DNA from: Faecalicatena absiana
GTDB taxonomy: Bacteria > Bacillota > Bacilli > Lactobacillales > Lactobacillaceae
Length of the DNA stretch: 64,000 bases
Assembly: GCA_017309015.1 (NCBI GenBank)
Contig: JAEDAG010000004.1
Span: 124,001-188,000, forward strand
Reading direction: 5' to 3'
A program made the translations under genes and the position numbers. Shown here one piece after another: positions 42,854-49,557 of this stretch. Below the pieces are notes generated by a model that saw nothing but the letters and a program-made list of their open reading frames with translations, was not told the origin of the DNA and did no database searches. How positions within the stretch are numbered: the stretch's first letter is position 1; each line of letters begins with the position of its first letter.

Positions 42854-44622
42854 TGTCCAACACCCAGAAGTCCCTTGCCTATCTTAGGAAATACCTGCGC
42901 GCCTATCAGAAGCCGATCGTGATTTCCGTAATGATCTACCTGCTGGCCACTGCCGCCCAGGTAGCCGCGCCAACCCTGCTGGGGATGGCGGTTACCGACT
43001 TGTCGGCTTTTGTCAAAGAAAGCGCCCAAGGCCATGCCACCCTAACCCGCTTCTACCAAGCCTTGACCTGGATGGCAGCCTTCTATGCCTTGAACTCCAT
43101 CGCGACCTACATTGCCTGGATGATGATGACGCGCTTTAACGCCAATGCCAACAATGACATGCGCAAGGGGCTGTTTGGCAAATTGCAGCGGATGACCATC
43201 CGTTACTTTGATACCCACCAGGACGGGCAGATCCTTTCCTTGTTCAACAGTGACCTGGACAACATCTTCAACGCTTTGAACAACGCCTTTTTTGAAATTA
43301 TTTCCCAGTCCATGCTGTTTATCGGGACGATCATCGTGATGTTCGCCATCAACTGGAAACTGGCCATCAGCGTGGTAATCACCACCCCTTTGATCCTGCT
43401 CTTGAGCTTTATCATCATGAAAAAAGCCCGGGTCTACCTGGACCACCAGCAAGACCGGGTGGGTGAGCTCAATGCCTACATCAACGAGCAGCTCAACGGG
43501 GAAAACATTATCATCACTCAAGGCCTGCGCGAGCAGTCTGTAGCCGGCTTTAAGAAAGAAAACGCCAAGGTGCGGGAAGCCATGTTCAAGGGGCAGTTCT
43601 ACTCTGGCATCCTGAACCCGCTGGTTTCCGGCTTCTCGCTGTTAAACTTCGCGATCGTGATCGCTACTGGCGCTTACATGATTATGACCAAGCAGGTCAG
43701 CCAGGCGGCCGGCCTGGGCTTGATCGTGACTTTCACCGAATACTCCTGGACCTATTTCCAGCCGCTGACTCAGGTAACTTCCATCTACTCCATGCTGCAG
43801 CTGGCCTTAACCGGGGCCCGGCGCCTGGAAACGGTTGAAGCGCAGGCTGAAGAGGATACGGTTCCAGATGGGAAGACCATTTCTGGAGTGAATGAAGCCG
43901 TTCGCCTGGAAGATGTGCACTTTGGCTACACTCCAAACAAGGAAATCCTGCACGGGGTATCAATTGAGGTGCCTAAGGGTCAGTCAGTTGCTGTCGTTGG
44001 CCCGACCGGGTCTGGTAAGACGACAATCATGAATTTGATCAACCGCTTCTATGACGTAAACAGCGGAGCAGTTACTTTTGACGGCACTGATGTCCGGGAC
44101 CTGCAGCTGGAAAATCTCAGAAGCAATGTCGGGATTGTCTTGCAAGACTCAGTCCTCTTCTCTGGCACGGTAGCTGACAACATCCGCTACGGCAAGCCGG
44201 ATGCTTCTATGGATGAAGTTATAGCCGCGGCTAAGGAAGCCCAGCTGCACGACTTTGTCATGACCCTGCCCAAGCAGTACGACACGCCGATTGAGAATGG
44301 CCAGGCCAACTTCTCTACCGGGCAAAAGCAGCTTTTGTCAATCGCCAGAACTATTCTGGTCGACCCGGCCTTCCTGATCCTGGACGAAGCAACTAGCAAT
44401 GTCGACACGGTTACGGAAGAAAAGATCCAAAAGGCCATGGACAATGTGATTGCTGGCCGGACCAGTTTCGTGATTGCCCACCGTTTAAAGACGATTTTGA
44501 ACTCAGACAAGATTGTCGTATTAAAGGACGGCCAGGTTATTGAAGAAGGACCGCACGCTGACTTGATCAAGAAGCGCGGCTTCTACTACAAGCTCTACAC
44601 CAGCCAGATGGCTTTTGAATAA
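42853..44622 (+). CDS. ABC exporter half-transporter, catalytic subunit
   Basis: 589 aa, six helices plus ATPase domain with Walker A GPTGSGKTT (about 382), Walker B FLILDEATSN with the proper catalytic Glu (about 510), and H-loop FVIAHRL. The signature is slightly altered (NFSTGQKQ), which pairs with the partner's defective Walker B site to form the degenerate composite site. Drug or peptide substrate unknown. Confidence 0.92.
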   Translation: MSNTQKSLAYLRKYLRAYQKPIVISVMIYLLATAAQVAAPTLLGMAVTDLSAFVKESAQGHATLTRFYQALTWMAAFYALNSIATYIAWMMMTRFNANANNDMRKGLFGKLQRMTIRYFDTHQDGQILSLFNSDLDNIFNALNNAFFEIISQSMLFIGTIIVMFAINWKLAISVVITTPLILLLSFIIMKKARVYLDHQQDRVGELNAYINEQLNGENIIITQGLREQSVAGFKKENAKVREAMFKGQFYSGILNPLVSGFSLLNFAIVIATGAYMIMTKQVSQAAGLGLIVTFTEYSWTYFQPLTQVTSIYSMLQLALTGARRLETVEAQAEEDTVPDGKTISGVNEAVRLEDVHFGYTPNKEILHGVSIEVPKGQSVAVVGPTGSGKTTIMNLINRFYDVNSGAVTFDGTDVRDLQLENLRSNVGIVLQDSVLFSGTVADNIRYGKPDASMDEVIAAAKEAQLHDFVMTLPKQYDTPIENGQANFSTGQKQLLSIARTILVDPAFLILDEATSNVDTVTEEKIQKAMDNVIAGRTSFVIAHRLKTILNSDKIVVLKDGQVIEEGPHADLIKKRGFYYKLYTSQMAFE

Positions 44623-44633
44623 GGGAAACATGC

Positions 44634-44673
44634 AAAAAGGACACCTGTCACGAATAGTGATGGGTGTCCTTTT
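44634..44673. terminator. Bidirectional terminator after the ABC operon
   Basis: AAAAGGACACC / GGTGTCCTTTT stem with an inner TCAC / GTGA pair, between converging genes. Confidence 0.88.
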
Positions 44674-44686
44674 CTTATTACTCGCC

Positions 44687-44995
44687 TTATTCAGTCTTGC
44701 CGCTATAGTTGGCAATCCCGCCAATATTTTTGACTTTGCTGTAGCCTGCCTGCTTAAGCCAGGCAACTGCTTGACCGCTCCGGTTGCCGCTTCGGCAATA
44801 GACAAAGAGCGGGGTATCAAGATCCGTGATCTCGCCTTGGGCAGATTCAATCTTGCTCAAAGGGATGTTGATACTGGCCGGGATGTGCCCTGCCGCGTAC
44901 TCATCCTCTTCTCTGACGTCGATCAGTTTGGCATTCGGTGTTTTCTGGTATTCTTCAACGCCCGTGTTAATGTCATTTGCTTGAAAATGGTCCAT
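44687..44995 (-). CDS. Single-domain rhodanese-like sulfurtransferase
   Basis: 102 aa. KLIDVREEDEYAAGHIPASI and the active loop FVYCRSGNRSGQA, with persulfide-forming Cys in a six-residue CRSGNR loop, mark a GlpE/PspE-like rhodanese. ATG 44995 follows CTAGGAGAAAAGA. Cytoplasmic. Sulfur donor and acceptor unknown. Confidence 0.92.
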   Translation of the reverse strand: MDHFQANDINTGVEEYQKTPNAKLIDVREEDEYAAGHIPASINIPLSKIESAQGEITDLDTPLFVYCRSGNRSGQAVAWLKQAGYSKVKNIGGIANYSGKTE

Positions 44996-45016
44996 TCTTT
45001 TCTCCTAGTTTGCTGC

Positions 45017-45150
45017 TTATTTGGTTCTTTCTTGTGCCACTAGCTCATCCAACTTTTGCTTCAATTCTTTGTTAATTTCAATATTGCCTTCTTCACCACT
45101 GTTGTTTGAAACCCACTTCCAGGTGATATCCCAGTCAGATAATATTGACC
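45017..45150 (-). pseudogene. C-terminal fragment of an unidentified protein
   Basis: Between the GNAT stop and the rhodanese gene, one frame reads WDITWKWVSNNSGEEGNIEI then NKELKQKLDELVAQERTK plus stop. It looks protein-like but has no start or upstream part. Possibly a truncated gene. Confidence 0.35.
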
Positions 45151-45152
45151 TC

Positions 45153-45695
45153 TTACAACTTCTTTTCCAAAAGGACCAGCGGGACATCCTTGAGCCCGTT
45201 GAATTCACAAGGAACGATTCCGATTTCCTTGTAGCCCAACTTCTTGTACATCGCCCGGGCGTTCTTATTATGGGCATTGGTGTCCATGCGTAGAAAGCGG
45301 GCAGCAGACTTCCGCGCGTAATCTTCATAAAAAGCGACAAAAGCCTTCCCGTAGCCGCGGTGAGCTGCGTATGGATCAACCACCAAAGTATGCAGCACCA
45401 TGACTTCATCGTCTTTAGCCGCATACTCCCAGTTCCCCTGCGCGTAAGCAGCAAGCTGCTTATCGTTGATAATAGCAGTAGCAACGACCTTGCCCTGGTC
45501 GTCTTCCAGGACGAAAAGATCGCCTCTTTCCAGTGCATCTTGCGCGGTATTTCTAGTCGGGTAAATCGCTCTGTCCCAGCCGATTTCTACCTTTCCTGCT
45601 TCCTCGAAGTCGTGAATATGGCTGTAAATTTCAGCCACAGCATCAAGGTCCTTATCTTGCGCTTTCCTAATCAAAGAATCACCTTTTCTTCTCAT
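45153..45695 (-). CDS. GNAT-family N-acetyltransferase
   Basis: 180 aa from ATG 45695, which overlaps the preceding stop (ATGA). A TTG at 45674 with AAAGGTGATTC is an alternative start. Motif B/A are visible: VLHTLVVDPYAAHRGYGKAF (acetyl-CoA pyrophosphate loop) and LRMDTNAHNKNARAMYKKLG. Substrate unknown. Translationally coupled to the recombinase-RNase H fusion gene. Confidence 0.87.
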   Translation of the reverse strand: MRRKGDSLIRKAQDKDLDAVAEIYSHIHDFEEAGKVEIGWDRAIYPTRNTAQDALERGDLFVLEDDQGKVVATAIINDKQLAAYAQGNWEYAAKDDEVMVLHTLVVDPYAAHRGYGKAFVAFYEDYARKSAARFLRMDTNAHNKNARAMYKKLGYKEIGIVPCEFNGLKDVPLVLLEKKL

Positions 45696-47020
45696 TCTGC
45701 CATGCGTTTCATCAGCAAGCTGTCAACAAAGTCGCTGCCAGCATCGCTGACAGTGCTTCTTAACCATGCAAATTTCAGCTTGGAGCTATCGAACTTGGCC
45801 AGCTCCCGGTCAATCTCCTGCCAGAGTTCCTGGTTGGCTACTGGCTTTCCATTAGCCGTCTTCCAGTCCCGCTTTTTCCAGCTCTTCATCCAGGCCGGGC
45901 CATCATTTGTGTCGCTGACGGACTTGATAACGTACTGGGAGTTCAAGACAAACAGCAAAGGCTGCTGGGTCAGACCCAACTGTTCCAGCTTCTTCAAGCT
46001 TTCCAGAAAAGCTGTCATTTCCATTTCATTATTGGTCGCGCCCAAACGGCCGGCACTATCAGCAAGCTGCTGGCCATCATGCTCGATCATGTAGGCCCAG
46101 GCAGCCTTATCGCTATCTTGGACATGGCTGCCCTTGCGCGCGCCGGTGCTCCGGCAGGCACCCCCGGTATAAATAACGGCAGAATAATCTTTCTTATCGT
46201 ATTCTGGCTCCTGCTTAACTGCATTTTGCGGATCAGCTGGATCAAGCTTTAAGTAGTTCAAGGCATCCGACTCACGGCTAAAGGACTTGTATTCAGCTCC
46301 CGGGAAGCCGTTTACCTGCTTTTCAGCTTCCGGCCAACTGTAATAGATTCCTGGCTGACGGCCTTTTCTGACAGCATAAGTTTTTTTAGCTTTTTCTGCT
46401 TCCTTCACTTCAGCATCAGCAACTTCCAGCTCTTGATCACTCTTGATCTCTGCCTTGTAACGCCTTAAGCCAGGCAAGCGGCTGGAGAAAAGATTGATGA
46501 TGCTTACCAGGTCATCCACCAGTTCTTGGCTGGGGCTGGTCGCGGGGTTATTGATGACCACGATTTCACTTCCATGGCGCTTGCAGAAATTGGCAAACCA
46601 GTCAAAAGCCAAGCGTACAAAGCGGTCTTTGTGGGTCACGTAGATCTTGTTGACCTCGCCGTCTTCAACTTTCTGCAAGAGCTGGTTCCATTCCAGACGG
46701 TTAAAATTCAGACCGCTGCCAATGTCTGACATACTTTCGCCCACAGTAATGCCGTTGGCATTGCAGTAGTCCAGCAAAAAATTCTCCTGCTTGGCCAAAT
46801 CATCGCTTGCCCAAGCAACCGACACGCGAGCATAGATCACGTTTATTCTGCCGTCGTTGCTGGCTGCGCCAAGATACTCGTTAAGCTGCTCTTGGGTGTA
46901 GTAACGCCGATTTGTGGCACTTCTTTCAGCCTTAAGTTTGCCCTCCCGGTCCCACCTTTGCAGAGTAGCAACAGAGACGTCAAGGATTTCAGCAGCTTCG
47001 CCTACTTTGTATTTCTTCAC
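45692..47020 (-). CDS. Fusion: IS607-like serine recombinase + viroplasmin domain + altered RNase H
   Basis: 442 aa numbered from GTG 47020, which follows AAGGGGCCTTTTATC; a GTG at 47038 is possible. Residues 1-50 form a MerR-like helix-turn-helix (VGEAAEILDVSVATLQRWDR) as in IS607 TnpA. Residues 58-190 form a serine-recombinase domain with INVIYARVS (Ser67) and VTHKDRFVRLAFDWF. Residues 213-258 resemble the Caulimovirus viroplasmin/hybrid-binding domain (YAVRKGRQPGIYYSWPEAEK). Residues 278-442 are RNase H1-like with Glu334 in NNEMEMTAFLESL and Asp433 kept. The first active-site Asp is Gly286 (YTGGACR) and the third is Asn360 (LNSQYV). The frame is uninterrupted, so it is not an obvious pseudogene. 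Confidence 0.85.
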   Translation of the reverse strand: MKKYKVGEAAEILDVSVATLQRWDREGKLKAERSATNRRYYTQEQLNEYLGAASNDGRINVIYARVSVAWASDDLAKQENFLLDYCNANGITVGESMSDIGSGLNFNRLEWNQLLQKVEDGEVNKIYVTHKDRFVRLAFDWFANFCKRHGSEIVVINNPATSPSQELVDDLVSIINLFSSRLPGLRRYKAEIKSDQELEVADAEVKEAEKAKKTYAVRKGRQPGIYYSWPEAEKQVNGFPGAEYKSFSRESDALNYLKLDPADPQNAVKQEPEYDKKDYSAVIYTGGACRSTGARKGSHVQDSDKAAWAYMIEHDGQQLADSAGRLGATNNEMEMTAFLESLKKLEQLGLTQQPLLFVLNSQYVIKSVSDTNDGPAWMKSWKKRDWKTANGKPVANQELWQEIDRELAKFDSSKLKFAWLRSTVSDAGSDFVDSLLMKRMAE

Positions 47021-47162
47021 GATAAAAGGCCCCTTCACATTGTTTGCTACTAGTATAACATGACTTGCATACTTGCTGTTAGCAGTTACACATAATAATG
47101 GATATGAATGGCTGCCACTGATTGCAATTAGCTTCTAGGCCGCGACTTTTTCAAGGTGCAAA

Positions 47163-47209
47163 GAAAAAAGCATCCCTCTTCGCAGAATGATCCGCGCGAG
47201 AGGGATGCT
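47163..47209 (-). terminator. Terminator after the RNase H gene
   Basis: AGCATCCCTCT / AGAGGGATGCT stem with a TTTTTT tail, read leftward. Confidence 0.85.
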
Positions 47210-47230
47210 GTCGATGAAAAAAGATAATTG

Positions 47231-47800
47231 TTACATCTCGTCCATCTGTTCATTAACAAGGGCATCAGCCAGGTTGTTGCCATCGCTATCAGCATGGCCG
47301 TCGACGTGCTGCAAAGTCAAATCGGAGAACTTAGAAATTTCCTTATCAATTTCCTTCCACAAGTCCTTGTTGGCAACTGGTTTCCCATTAGAATTTCTCC
47401 AGCCCCGTTTTTTCCATCCTTTGATCCAAGCAGTCCCATCGGCAGAGTCACTGAGGGCTTTGCGAACATAGTCTGAATCTAAGGAAAGCAGCAGCTTCTT
47501 CTGGCTAAGACCCATGTCTTCAAGAGCCTTCAAGCTTTCAAGAACAGCCGTCATTTCCATCTGGTTGTTAGTAGCTCCGACTTTGCCGCCAGTAGTGGTC
47601 ATGGCATGTCCATCATGCAAGATCACGTATGCCCATGCTGCCTTGTCAGTTGGCAAAACGTGTTCACCTGCATTGTTGCCGTTGTTGCGGCAGCCACCGT
47701 CGGTAAAGATCCAGGCATCGTATTCGGATTCAAGTTGTTCTGCTTCCAGCTTTCCGATGAAGCTCATTTTTTCTTCTTTTGTCAAAGTTTTTTTAGTCAT
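47231..47800 (-). CDS. Ribonuclease H (type 1), intact active site
   Basis: 189 aa. All four RNase H1 acidic residues are visible: WIFTDGGCRNNG (Asp), NNQMEMTAVLESL (Glu), LLSLDSDYVRKAL (Asp) and HVDGHADSDGNNLADAL (His plus last Asp). It lacks a viroplasmin domain, having a 27-residue basic N-terminus instead. ATG 47800 follows AAGGAGACTGTCACA. It is a paralogue of the RNase H part of the neighbouring fusion, sharing the GKPVAN-LW-EID segment. Confidence 0.93.
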   Translation of the reverse strand: MTKKTLTKEEKMSFIGKLEAEQLESEYDAWIFTDGGCRNNGNNAGEHVLPTDKAAWAYVILHDGHAMTTTGGKVGATNNQMEMTAVLESLKALEDMGLSQKKLLLSLDSDYVRKALSDSADGTAWIKGWKKRGWRNSNGKPVANKDLWKEIDKEISKFSDLTLQHVDGHADSDGNNLADALVNEQMDEM

Positions 47801-47969
47801 TGTGACAGTCTCCTTACTAAATTTTCAAATGGACTTGTTTATGTCTTTGAAGCATTTCTGCTTCATCTGACAAGTTAATTGTAGTACATTGCTTACATTT
47901 CCGCAACACTTACTTACGTTTTTGTAATACATTTTTTTGGACATAAAGAAGCCGCCCTTTTAGAGCTCA

Positions 47970-48012
47970 AAAAAATGTGCCAAACAAGTTCTGCTTGTTT
48001 AGCACGTTTTTA
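47970..48012. terminator. Hairpin with T runs on both strands
   Basis: GTGCCAAACAAG / CTTGTTTAGCAC, loop TTCTG, flanked by A and T runs. The 47801-48133 gap otherwise holds only AT-rich sequence with no supported gene. Confidence 0.7.
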
Positions 48013-48133
48013 GATATATTTGCTTCTGCCAAAGAGATAGCCTTCTGCAGCTAAAGACATTAAACTCCACTCCGATTAGCAATAGATTGTTATGCTTTTT
48101 ATCATAGCATCGATCCCGCCAATGTAATAGCAA

Positions 48134-48664
48134 CTATTTCAGCCAGCTTTCCCGCTTTAGTACGTTTTCGACTTCTGGCAATTTATAGCCAAGCAGGGTA
48201 TCACCCTCTGGGTCAGTTTTGACATAGGTGAAGCCAAGTTTTTCCTGAACTCTCTTTGATTTCTCATTCCCCTCATAGTAGCAGCACCAGACCGCTTTGC
48301 ATTTTAGATCGGCGAAAGCATGGTCAATTAGGCAAGTTGCAGCTTCTGGGGCATAGCCGCGCCCCCAATATTCTTTGCCGATCCAGTAGCCAAGCTCTGG
48401 CTCATCATCTTTTTCTGAGCAGGCACCCTCACCAAATCTCAAGCCCGCGCAACCAATGATTAGATTGTCATCTTTCCTCAAAACTGCGTAAGTTTCCGGG
48501 GCTTGCAAATTCTCTTGAATCACCTGCAAGCTCTCTTCAACAGATTTATGGGCGGGCCAGCCAGCGGCAGGACCGATGGCTGGATCCTTGGCTAATTCGT
48601 AGAGGCGGGCGGCATCACTGTCTTCCCAGGGCCGCAAGCGCAATCTATCAGTAGTTAGTTCCAT
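48134..48664 (-). CDS. GNAT acetyltransferase, RimJ/RimL type
   Basis: 176 aa, MELTTDRLRLRPWEDSDAAR is the classic RimJ/RimL opening. LGYWIGKEYWGRGYAPEAAT is the acetyl-CoA binding motif and NEKSKRVQEKLGF follows. ATG 48664 follows CAGGAGGGAAAA. It probably acetylates a protein N-terminus, an antibiotic or a small amine; not decidable here. Confidence 0.9.
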   Translation of the reverse strand: MELTTDRLRLRPWEDSDAARLYELAKDPAIGPAAGWPAHKSVEESLQVIQENLQAPETYAVLRKDDNLIIGCAGLRFGEGACSEKDDEPELGYWIGKEYWGRGYAPEAATCLIDHAFADLKCKAVWCCYYEGNEKSKRVQEKLGFTYVKTDPEGDTLLGYKLPEVENVLKRESWLK

Positions 48665-48834
48665 TTTTCCCTCCTGGATTTTTAAATCATCAGTTAAAGA
48701 CAATCTTAACATAGTGACAGGATTTCCTAGTCACTATTTTTCCTGTTCCCCTAGCCAAGCCGAACTAAGTTGCTATAATCGAATCGCAGCTATTAGAACA
48801 AATGTTTTATTTGCTTTTGGAGGGAAGAAAAAAT

Positions 48835-49203
48835 ATGTCTGAAATTCTGTTCATGATTGCCCGCTTTAGCCTGGTGCTGGTCCTTTGCCACCTGCTTGCC
48901 CTGCCGCAAGCCTAGAGAAATGGCCTGGTGGGCGAATCCCTGCTTTAATCACTGAGCTTTGCCTGATCTTGATCCAGCTGGAGCTCAGCTTTTTCCGTCA
49001 CTGCCTTGACCGCCTTCCTCCTTTTTGCCGGCAATCTATTGCTGGAATTCGTCATCTTCTGCGATGACTTCTTAACAGATGCCAGATACAAGAGCCTGTG
49101 GGCCTACTTCAAGAATCTGAAGAAGAAGCAGAAGTTTTGGCTCATCGCAGTTGTCGTGATCACTGCCTTTGCTGGCCTGATCAATTTCTTCCCGGCTCCT
49201 TAA
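48835..49203 (+). pseudogene. Broken small membrane protein gene
   Basis: ATG 48835 with TTGGAGGGAAGAAAAAAT opens MSEILFMIARFSLVLVLCHL and stops after 26 residues. A second frame from about 49000 continues as TAFLLFAGNLLLEFVIFCDD to KKQKFWLIAVVVITAFAGLI and the stop at 49203. A terminator follows. The two parts fit one frameshifted membrane protein. Confidence 0.6.
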
Positions 49204-49210
49204 TCGCCCT

Positions 49211-49238
49211 CCCTGCTATAGAAGGCAGGGATTTTTTG
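49211..49238 (+). terminator. Terminator after the broken membrane protein gene
   Basis: CCCTGC / GCAGGG hairpin followed by ATTTTTT. Confidence 0.75.
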
Positions 49239-49264
49239 TCGAAAAAGTAATCTGGGAGTAATCC

Positions 49265-49557
49265 ATGTCCAAAAACAAATCTACCATTGATCTGACCTCG
49301 GGCATCATCAGCCTTGGTCTGGTTAAATTTGCCCTGCCCCTGATGGCCGGCAACGTCCTCCAGCAGTGTTACCAATGATCTCTGTTGTTTTGACGATCTT
49401 TTCCTTAGGTACCCGGGTTCTTTTGGCCTAACTCTTGTCCGCGGTTCCGTCAATCGGCTATATTGGAATTTGGGCCAGCATCCCAACCGGCTGGGCCGTG
49501 GCCGACTTAGCCGAGCTTTACTACCTGCACAAGAAGGCAGTTAAGCCAGCTGCCTGA
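49265..49557 (+). pseudogene. MATE-family transporter remnant
   Basis: The N-terminus SKNKSTIDLTSGIISLGLVK then FALPLMAGNVLQQCYQ is that of a MATE efflux protein, ending at a stop after 37 codons. After a gap the C-terminal helix SIGYIGIWASIPTGWAVADL and AELYYLHKK of the same family appears, ending 49557. About 350 internal residues are missing. Confidence 0.75.

Follow-up and report, generated by a model that had tools for sequence, protein, structure and literature searches.

The window, the 64,000-nucleotide stretch of DNA analyzed here, encodes on its minus strand a protein in which a serine recombinase of the IS607 transposase (TnpA) type is fused to a hybrid-binding domain and an RNase H fold. 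The fusion is a single 442-codon frame that runs from a GTG at position 47020 to a stop codon at 45692-45694 and is preceded, a few bases 5′ of the GTG, by AAGGGG, read from the sequence. The features of the locus are as follows:

45153-45695, minus strand: GNAT acetyltransferase gene, starting within a few bases of the stop codon of the fusion
45692..47020, minus strand: fusion gene, 442 aa, GTG start, open frame with the Shine-Dalgarno-like AAGGGG; orthologues of 446 aa
45695..46180, minus strand: RNase H fold, residues 281-442 (PF00075, alignments); D10G, D70N, H124T, with E48 and D134 kept
46253..46384, minus strand: Cauli_VI / RNase H1 hybrid-binding domain, residues 213-256 (PF01693, E 4e-19)
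46433..46840, minus strand: IS607-type serine recombinase, residues 61-196 (PF00239, NF033518); Ser67 kept, Gln71-Lys72 lost
46841..47020, minus strand: MerR-type helix-turn-helix, residues 1-60 (PF00376/PF13411)
47021..47075, minus strand: promoter stretch, TGTTATACT, -10-like; invariant in three genomes and resembling the IS607 tnpA promoter or left end
47170..47208, minus strand: hairpin with a trailing T run in the gap that separates the small RNase H gene from the fusion, seen in the sequence
47231..47800, minus strand: separate 189-aa RNase H without the hybrid-binding domain (profile and alignment); active-site residues intact

The Pfam scan of the fusion protein recovered the MerR, Resolvase, Cauli_VI and RNase_H domains in this order, every one above the cut-off. 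The MerR-type domain thus precedes the serine recombinase, as in IS607 TnpA, and the first ~196 residues reach 182.5 bits with the NCBIfam IS607 transposase model (cut-off 110). The C-terminal half has the domain content of RNase HI, namely, Cauli_VI, the residues of which match the solved N-terminal domains of RNase H1 (3bsu, 6vrd), and the RNase H fold, as identified with profiles and, for the RNase H part, also in a structure model; the NCBIfam ribonuclease HI model yields 79 bits, below the curated cut-off of 160. Both halves are near-complete: TnpA stops approximately where it naturally would, and the start of the RNase HI half roughly coincides with that of free RNase HI. In the structure model, which has a mean pLDDT of 79.0, a pTM of 0.44 and an unreliable arrangement of the domains, pLDDT is 90-98 across most ten-residue blocks of the RNase H fold, three blocks having 61, 82 and 84, and the confidence is low for Cauli_VI and helix E. 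The three-domain reading of the frame in the first-pass annotation, its coordinates and the placement of Ser67, Gly286 and Asn360 are all correct.

That annotation also claimed the loss of two active-site acids in the RNase H half, and this claim holds in all full-length copies of the fusion (the window and two orthologues described below). In E. coli RNase H numbering (D70, E48, H124, N130 and D134 assigned via alignments with the E. coli enzyme, and D10 via the 6vrd alignment and comparison with Lactobacillus sequences), D10 is replaced by Gly286 in 3/3 fusions, and D70 by Asn360 in the window and by Asn or Thr in all three, Thr being found in the G061 genome; D70N is also present in both remnants of the gene in L. 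delbrueckii. The loss goes further, with H124 replaced by Thr423 and N130 by Ser429 in 3/3 fusions, and the recombinase is altered as well. All 12 compared Lactobacillus RNases HI retain Asp, Asp, His and Asn at these four positions (D10, D70, H124, N130), and the fusion has further substitutions at the positions of Gly288, Asn291 and Gly422 in the Lactobacillus enzymes. Thus, within the active-site set of D10, E48, D70, D134 and the catalytic His, three residues (D10, D70 and H124) are gone from every copy, and E48 (Glu334) and D134 (Asp433) remain; judged by its residues, the active site is dead in all three copies. The fusion is identical to E. coli RNase H at T43, N44, N45, Q72, W81, W85, K86, K87, R88, W90 and N100, which we take to be contacts with the hybrid, and differs in the basic handle, where Gly89 is replaced by Asp and E. 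coli Asn84 by Ser. With many of the presumed substrate contacts kept and some changed, the domain is predicted to bind RNA-DNA hybrids without cleaving them.

The recombinase half presents a mixed picture. Ser67, the conservation of which we checked in an alignment with free TnpAs, the YAR motif and the Arg motif DRF.R are retained in all three fusions. However, residues close to the catalytic serine have changed: Gln71 and Lys72, kept in 17/17 free TnpA rows that cover those columns, are replaced by Ala or Gly and by Ser, respectively, in 3/3 fusions. In resolvases, this Gln belongs to the active site. The family residues Tyr106, Lys110, Tyr130, Phe137 (Leu in the fusions) and His176 are among those replaced in all three, and altogether, 13 of the 70 well-conserved TnpA columns are changed in at least one fusion. 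The model splits the helix E region into two parts (163-179 and 182-193; low confidence), a split that is also seen in TnpA crystal structures (PMC6188088).

Homologues with the same domain order were sought as the first-pass annotation proposed, and the full-length fusion was found in 3 of 75 genomes of the genus, including that of the window. The two orthologues, both of 446 aa with the same GTG, come from an uncultured Lactobacillus metagenome-assembled genome (MAG; G061, 95% amino-acid identity) and from Lactobacillus nasalidis YZ01 (G031, 91-92%); the carriers, few in number, are closely related to the yogurt bacterium. The presence of the same frame in two other assemblies dispenses with an assembly artefact in a single genome. 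The annotation regarded two arrangements as fatal to its reading, two separate genes in relatives or a frameshifted recombinase; the former did not appear among the relatives examined, and the latter did not appear in the two full-length orthologues. Two L. delbrueckii strains carry truncated remnants only: in subsp. delbrueckii DSM 20074 (G010), the C-terminal part remains, and in subsp. indicus JCM 15610, a shortened remnant adjoins the same rhodanese gene. A scan of named species genomes, which may omit the genome of the window, confirmed five loci: two full fusions, one remnant and two pieces of a free TnpA. Among the matches listed for 397 sampled genomes of the family (E 1e-45), there was no full-length fusion besides that of the window, and no further one was found in samples of 395 order, 398 class and 398 phylum genomes (E 1e-66); because these samples overlap and at most four candidates were scored per genome, distant fusions could be missed. 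Most likely, as the distribution suggests, the fusion arose before these species diverged and later disappeared from both L. delbrueckii strains seen, which makes it dispensable there.

The locus does not resemble an IS607 insertion sequence. The fusion is present in a single copy in its own genome; no tnpB-like frame was seen by eye beside it; and the neighbor genes are common to the other carriers and also adjoin the L. delbrueckii remnants. Together with the purifying selection described below, these features support the suggestion of the first-pass annotation that the fusion may be domesticated. The GNAT gene follows the fusion in the window and lies further downstream in L. nasalidis, but is missing from that place in G061, so that it is no fixed partner. 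Other kinds of element can be set aside. None of 72,556 plasmid and 50,697 phage records covers 80% of the query at a single site, and viral contigs yielded no confirmed relative; among the four proteins scanned for defense systems, the only PADLOC match was mad1, to the helix-turn-helix; Rfam gave no match at the gathering threshold in 44000-49500; and the window contains no tRNA, which argues against a tRNA-linked island.

The L. delbrueckii remnants start at different residues of the fusion (L041 at 332 and L057 at 316); the front half of the fusion and the small RNase H may therefore have gone through two deletions, either distinct or nested. Two records from L. delbrueckii subsp. indicus JCM 15610 that are named plasmids (NZ_CP018613 and NZ_CP018612) carry a locus of hypothetical genes, the RNase H remnant and the rhodanese gene, with ABC transporters shown in one of them; this locus is chromosomal in relatives, and the plasmid label may reflect an assembly or naming problem.

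Comparison of the three copies, one of them from a MAG and one from a 720-contig draft, indicates strong constraint. The dN/dS values for the whole gene are 0.114, 0.124 and 0.125 in the three pairs (bootstrap 95% limits 0.06 to 0.19, the upper limits being 0.18-0.19). Among the parts, the helix-turn-helix has the lowest values (0.03-0.04), followed by the RNase H part (0.083-0.095, compared with 0.080 between G061 and L. delbrueckii for an RNase HI that looks active) and the recombinase part (0.12-0.18). For Cauli_VI, dN/dS is 0.06-0.25, with few changes and limits of 0 to 0.57, and the value of 0.25 in one pair stems from one synonymous and one non-synonymous change. The 16-codon linker evolves more freely (0.25-1.0, from a calculation in which the domain limits of the G061-G031 pair are offset by four codons past the linker). 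Judged by these ratios (0.03-0.25), every domain of the fusion is under purifying selection. Given that the frame is open in two other genomes and that dN/dS of the whole gene is 0.11-0.125, the fusion is more than a chance event.

The region upstream of the fusion is conserved as well. The 55 bases immediately 5′ of the start are identical in the three genomes, compared with 26 variable columns among 215 in the same gap overall and 44 variable fourfold sites among 151; assuming independent neutral sites, the chance of an unbroken 55-base run at that rate is ~6e-9. Some of the upstream identity between the window and L. nasalidis may be due to recombination, because dS between these two genomes is 0.11 for the small RNase H upstream versus 0.33 for the fusion. 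A MAFFT alignment, the IS rows of which stop roughly one codon past the gene start, pairs the -10-like stretch and its flanks with IS607 tnpA promoters, which lie inside the left end; a BLAST search upstream of the fusion yielded no match to an IS607 left end. In the 110 upstream bases, GCAAGT is the only exact word 6 to 8 bases long that occurs twice. TnpA of IS1535 forms a filament when it binds the repeated motifs of the left end (PMC6188088), and, by analogy, binding of the fusion to its own promoter is quite plausible.

The small RNase H gene upstream co-occurs with the fusion. Its close orthologues (93-95% identity) were found only in G061 and G031 among the 75 genomes of the genus (E 1e-48), the next best matches being at most 58% identical, so that the carriers of the gene are the same 3 of 75 genomes, own included, that contain the full-length fusion. 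Its dN/dS is 0.19-0.40, above that of the fusion, and its dS is below that of the fusion. The hairpin between the two genes, which the pattern scan did not list as its loop exceeds the length that the scan allows, is probably the terminator of the small RNase H gene, suggesting separate transcripts.

We examined the origin of the two halves in phylogenetic trees. The TnpA part of the fusion is the sister of a partial free TnpA from Lactobacillus sp. MRS-253-APC-2B (support 99/95), with a fusion stem of 0.57 changes per column and tips of 0.026-0.039. In the RNase H tree, the fusion stem is 0.45 and the branches inside the clade are at most 0.054; the fusion, the small RNase H and the RNases HI of the group (L042 and L043) cluster together, with support no higher than 74/83 and with no branching order among them favored (p-AU 0.28). 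Strong change followed by constancy would be the expected trace of a new function. Rapid divergence is not special to the fusion, however, because the stem of the small RNase H is even longer (0.70). The divergence of the fusion, its residue losses and the selection acting on it are observed directly, and the following scenario would account for them. An IS607 insertion sequence would have landed, in an ancestor of the L. delbrueckii group, before a duplicated RNase HI gene that encoded the hybrid-binding domain and RNase H; through subsequent loss of tnpB and the right end, the complete TnpA frame would have become continuous with that gene. Domestication presumably followed, with strong divergence and loss of the RNase H catalytic residues and of some conserved recombinase residues, after which selection would have kept the product constant.

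The fusion can be compared with several known systems. It shares with the IS607-family TnpA (NF033518; structures 3lhk, 3ilx and 6dgc) the same two domains in the same order and, in the model, the split helix E described for that family (Hancock et al. 2018, PMC6188088), and is 74-75% identical to the nearest free TnpA piece, with a family score above the cut-off. Unlike TnpA of this family, it has the C-terminal Cauli_VI and RNase H domains, no adjoining tnpB-like frame, a single copy and no Gln71-Lys72. With bacterial RNase HI that has an N-terminal hybrid-binding domain, it shares both domains, complete and in order (55-63% identity to the RNases HI of the group, depending on the alignment), but the catalytic residues are lost, the score is below the curated ribonuclease HI cut-off and a recombinase lies in front.

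The statement of the first-pass annotation that it knew of no such described system holds for the complete protein, which was not found among the literature matches listed, but not for a portion of it: part of this architecture has been in print since 2007. In a single sentence and table row that name no MerR or RNase H part, Kochiwa et al. reported that one L. delbrueckii gene combines the hybrid-binding domain (dsRHbd) with a resolvase (NC_008054, 978609-979283; PMC1950709). Both genes have the resolvase followed by the hybrid-binding domain, in the same species group; the published gene differs in having only 675 bases and in that Resolvase starts at residue 1 (PMC1950709). Because of this start and the absence of RNase H from the listing, it looks cut at both ends and, compared by its published description alone, probably represents the fusion gene in a shortened form. 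Domesticated forms of TnpB, the second protein of IS607 elements, have been published as well: the nuclease-dead TnpB repressors, TldR, follow the same logic, whereby a transposon protein is domesticated after death of the nuclease with binding kept, but differ from the fusion in being derived from TnpB rather than TnpA and RNA-guided, with no RNase H fusion named in the text available (PMC13418256). The literature matches listed included neither a fused, selected IS607 TnpA nor the selection on this protein, its dead RNase H or the neighbor gene.

It seems probable, from the sequence comparisons, that the fusion is kept intact in three species because it does a new job. The explanation that we favor, and to which we give an even chance, is that of an IS607-derived, domesticated protein that no longer transposes. 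Its product would be a dimeric DNA-binding protein, the MerR domain of which would bind motifs derived from the ends of the insertion sequence, at least in its own promoter, whereas the hybrid-binding domain and the dead RNase H would grip an RNA-DNA hybrid or R-loop and leave it uncut, so that the protein might act as a regulator or mark sites for the adjacent RNase H. A pure DNA binder would have no use for Ser67 and the Arg motifs, so that their retention counts against this explanation, as do the loss of the gene from two L. delbrueckii strains, the small number of copies (three), the changes in the handle (Gly89 to Asp, Asn84 to Ser) and Asn130 to Ser. A more ambitious version, in which the fusion would represent a new bacterial regulator, a domesticated serine transposase that reads a DNA site through MerR and an R-loop through the hybrid-binding domain and pseudo-RNase H, and gates expression or passes the hybrid to the adjacent RNase H, is tentative and unlikely.

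The first-pass annotation proposed that the hybrid-binding module steers a still active recombinase or transposase to R-loops. The retained Ser67, YAR and DR..R motifs and the selection on the recombinase part (0.12-0.18) speak for this idea, but with conserved residues next to the catalytic Ser also changed, it is less likely than a non-catalytic binder of DNA and hybrids; the loss of Gln71-Lys72, present in 17/17 free TnpA rows, Phe137 to Leu in all three copies, the lack of a second copy in the genome and of an adjoining tnpB-like frame, and neighbors shared with other genomes and with the L. delbrueckii remnants make it, in our estimate, distinctly improbable. Less improbable, although still unlikely, is a role for the fusion as a pseudo-enzyme that complexes with or positions the adjacent RNase H and adds hybrid binding and a DNA address; this would fit a small RNase H that lacks the hybrid-binding domain yet keeps its catalytic residues, with close orthologues confined to the 3 of 75 genomes that carry the full-length fusion. 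However, a terminator-like hairpin separates the two genes, the small RNase H has the higher dN/dS and lower dS, and the co-occurrence rests on three related genomes. We consider it very unlikely that the fusion guards against IS607 elements as a dominant-negative transposase that occupies their left ends. The lowest dN/dS is indeed that of the helix-turn-helix, and the genome contains four IS607 tnpA genes, all with a tnpB-like frame (by eye) behind them, but the MAG and L. nasalidis keep the fusion with no other IS607 match (both are drafts, so repeats may be missing), and the RNase H half would be left unexplained. Finally, a chance fusion in decay, open only through youth, is scarcely credible: the gene is broken in the two L. 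delbrueckii strains seen and has lost catalytic residues, but all pairs have dN/dS values well under 1, both over the full gene and in its helix-turn-helix, recombinase and RNase H parts, which speaks strongly against such decay, and the 55 invariant upstream bases are also at odds with it.

The fusion is real, conserved, odd and narrow; its architecture, conservation, selection, loss of catalytic residues and co-occurring neighbor gene are all seen in the data, and it is so far limited to a handful of related Lactobacillus species. It ties a DNA-binding module of a transposon to putative recognition of RNA-DNA hybrids, with the cutting residues removed; therefore, whether a bacterium reads R-loops at chosen sites becomes testable with one small protein and its neighbor.

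The resident IS607 tnpA genes of the same genome (L002-L005) are located on contigs C1, C17 and C20. Three of these are near-identical and show 60% identity to the TnpA part of the fusion; the fourth shows 52%.
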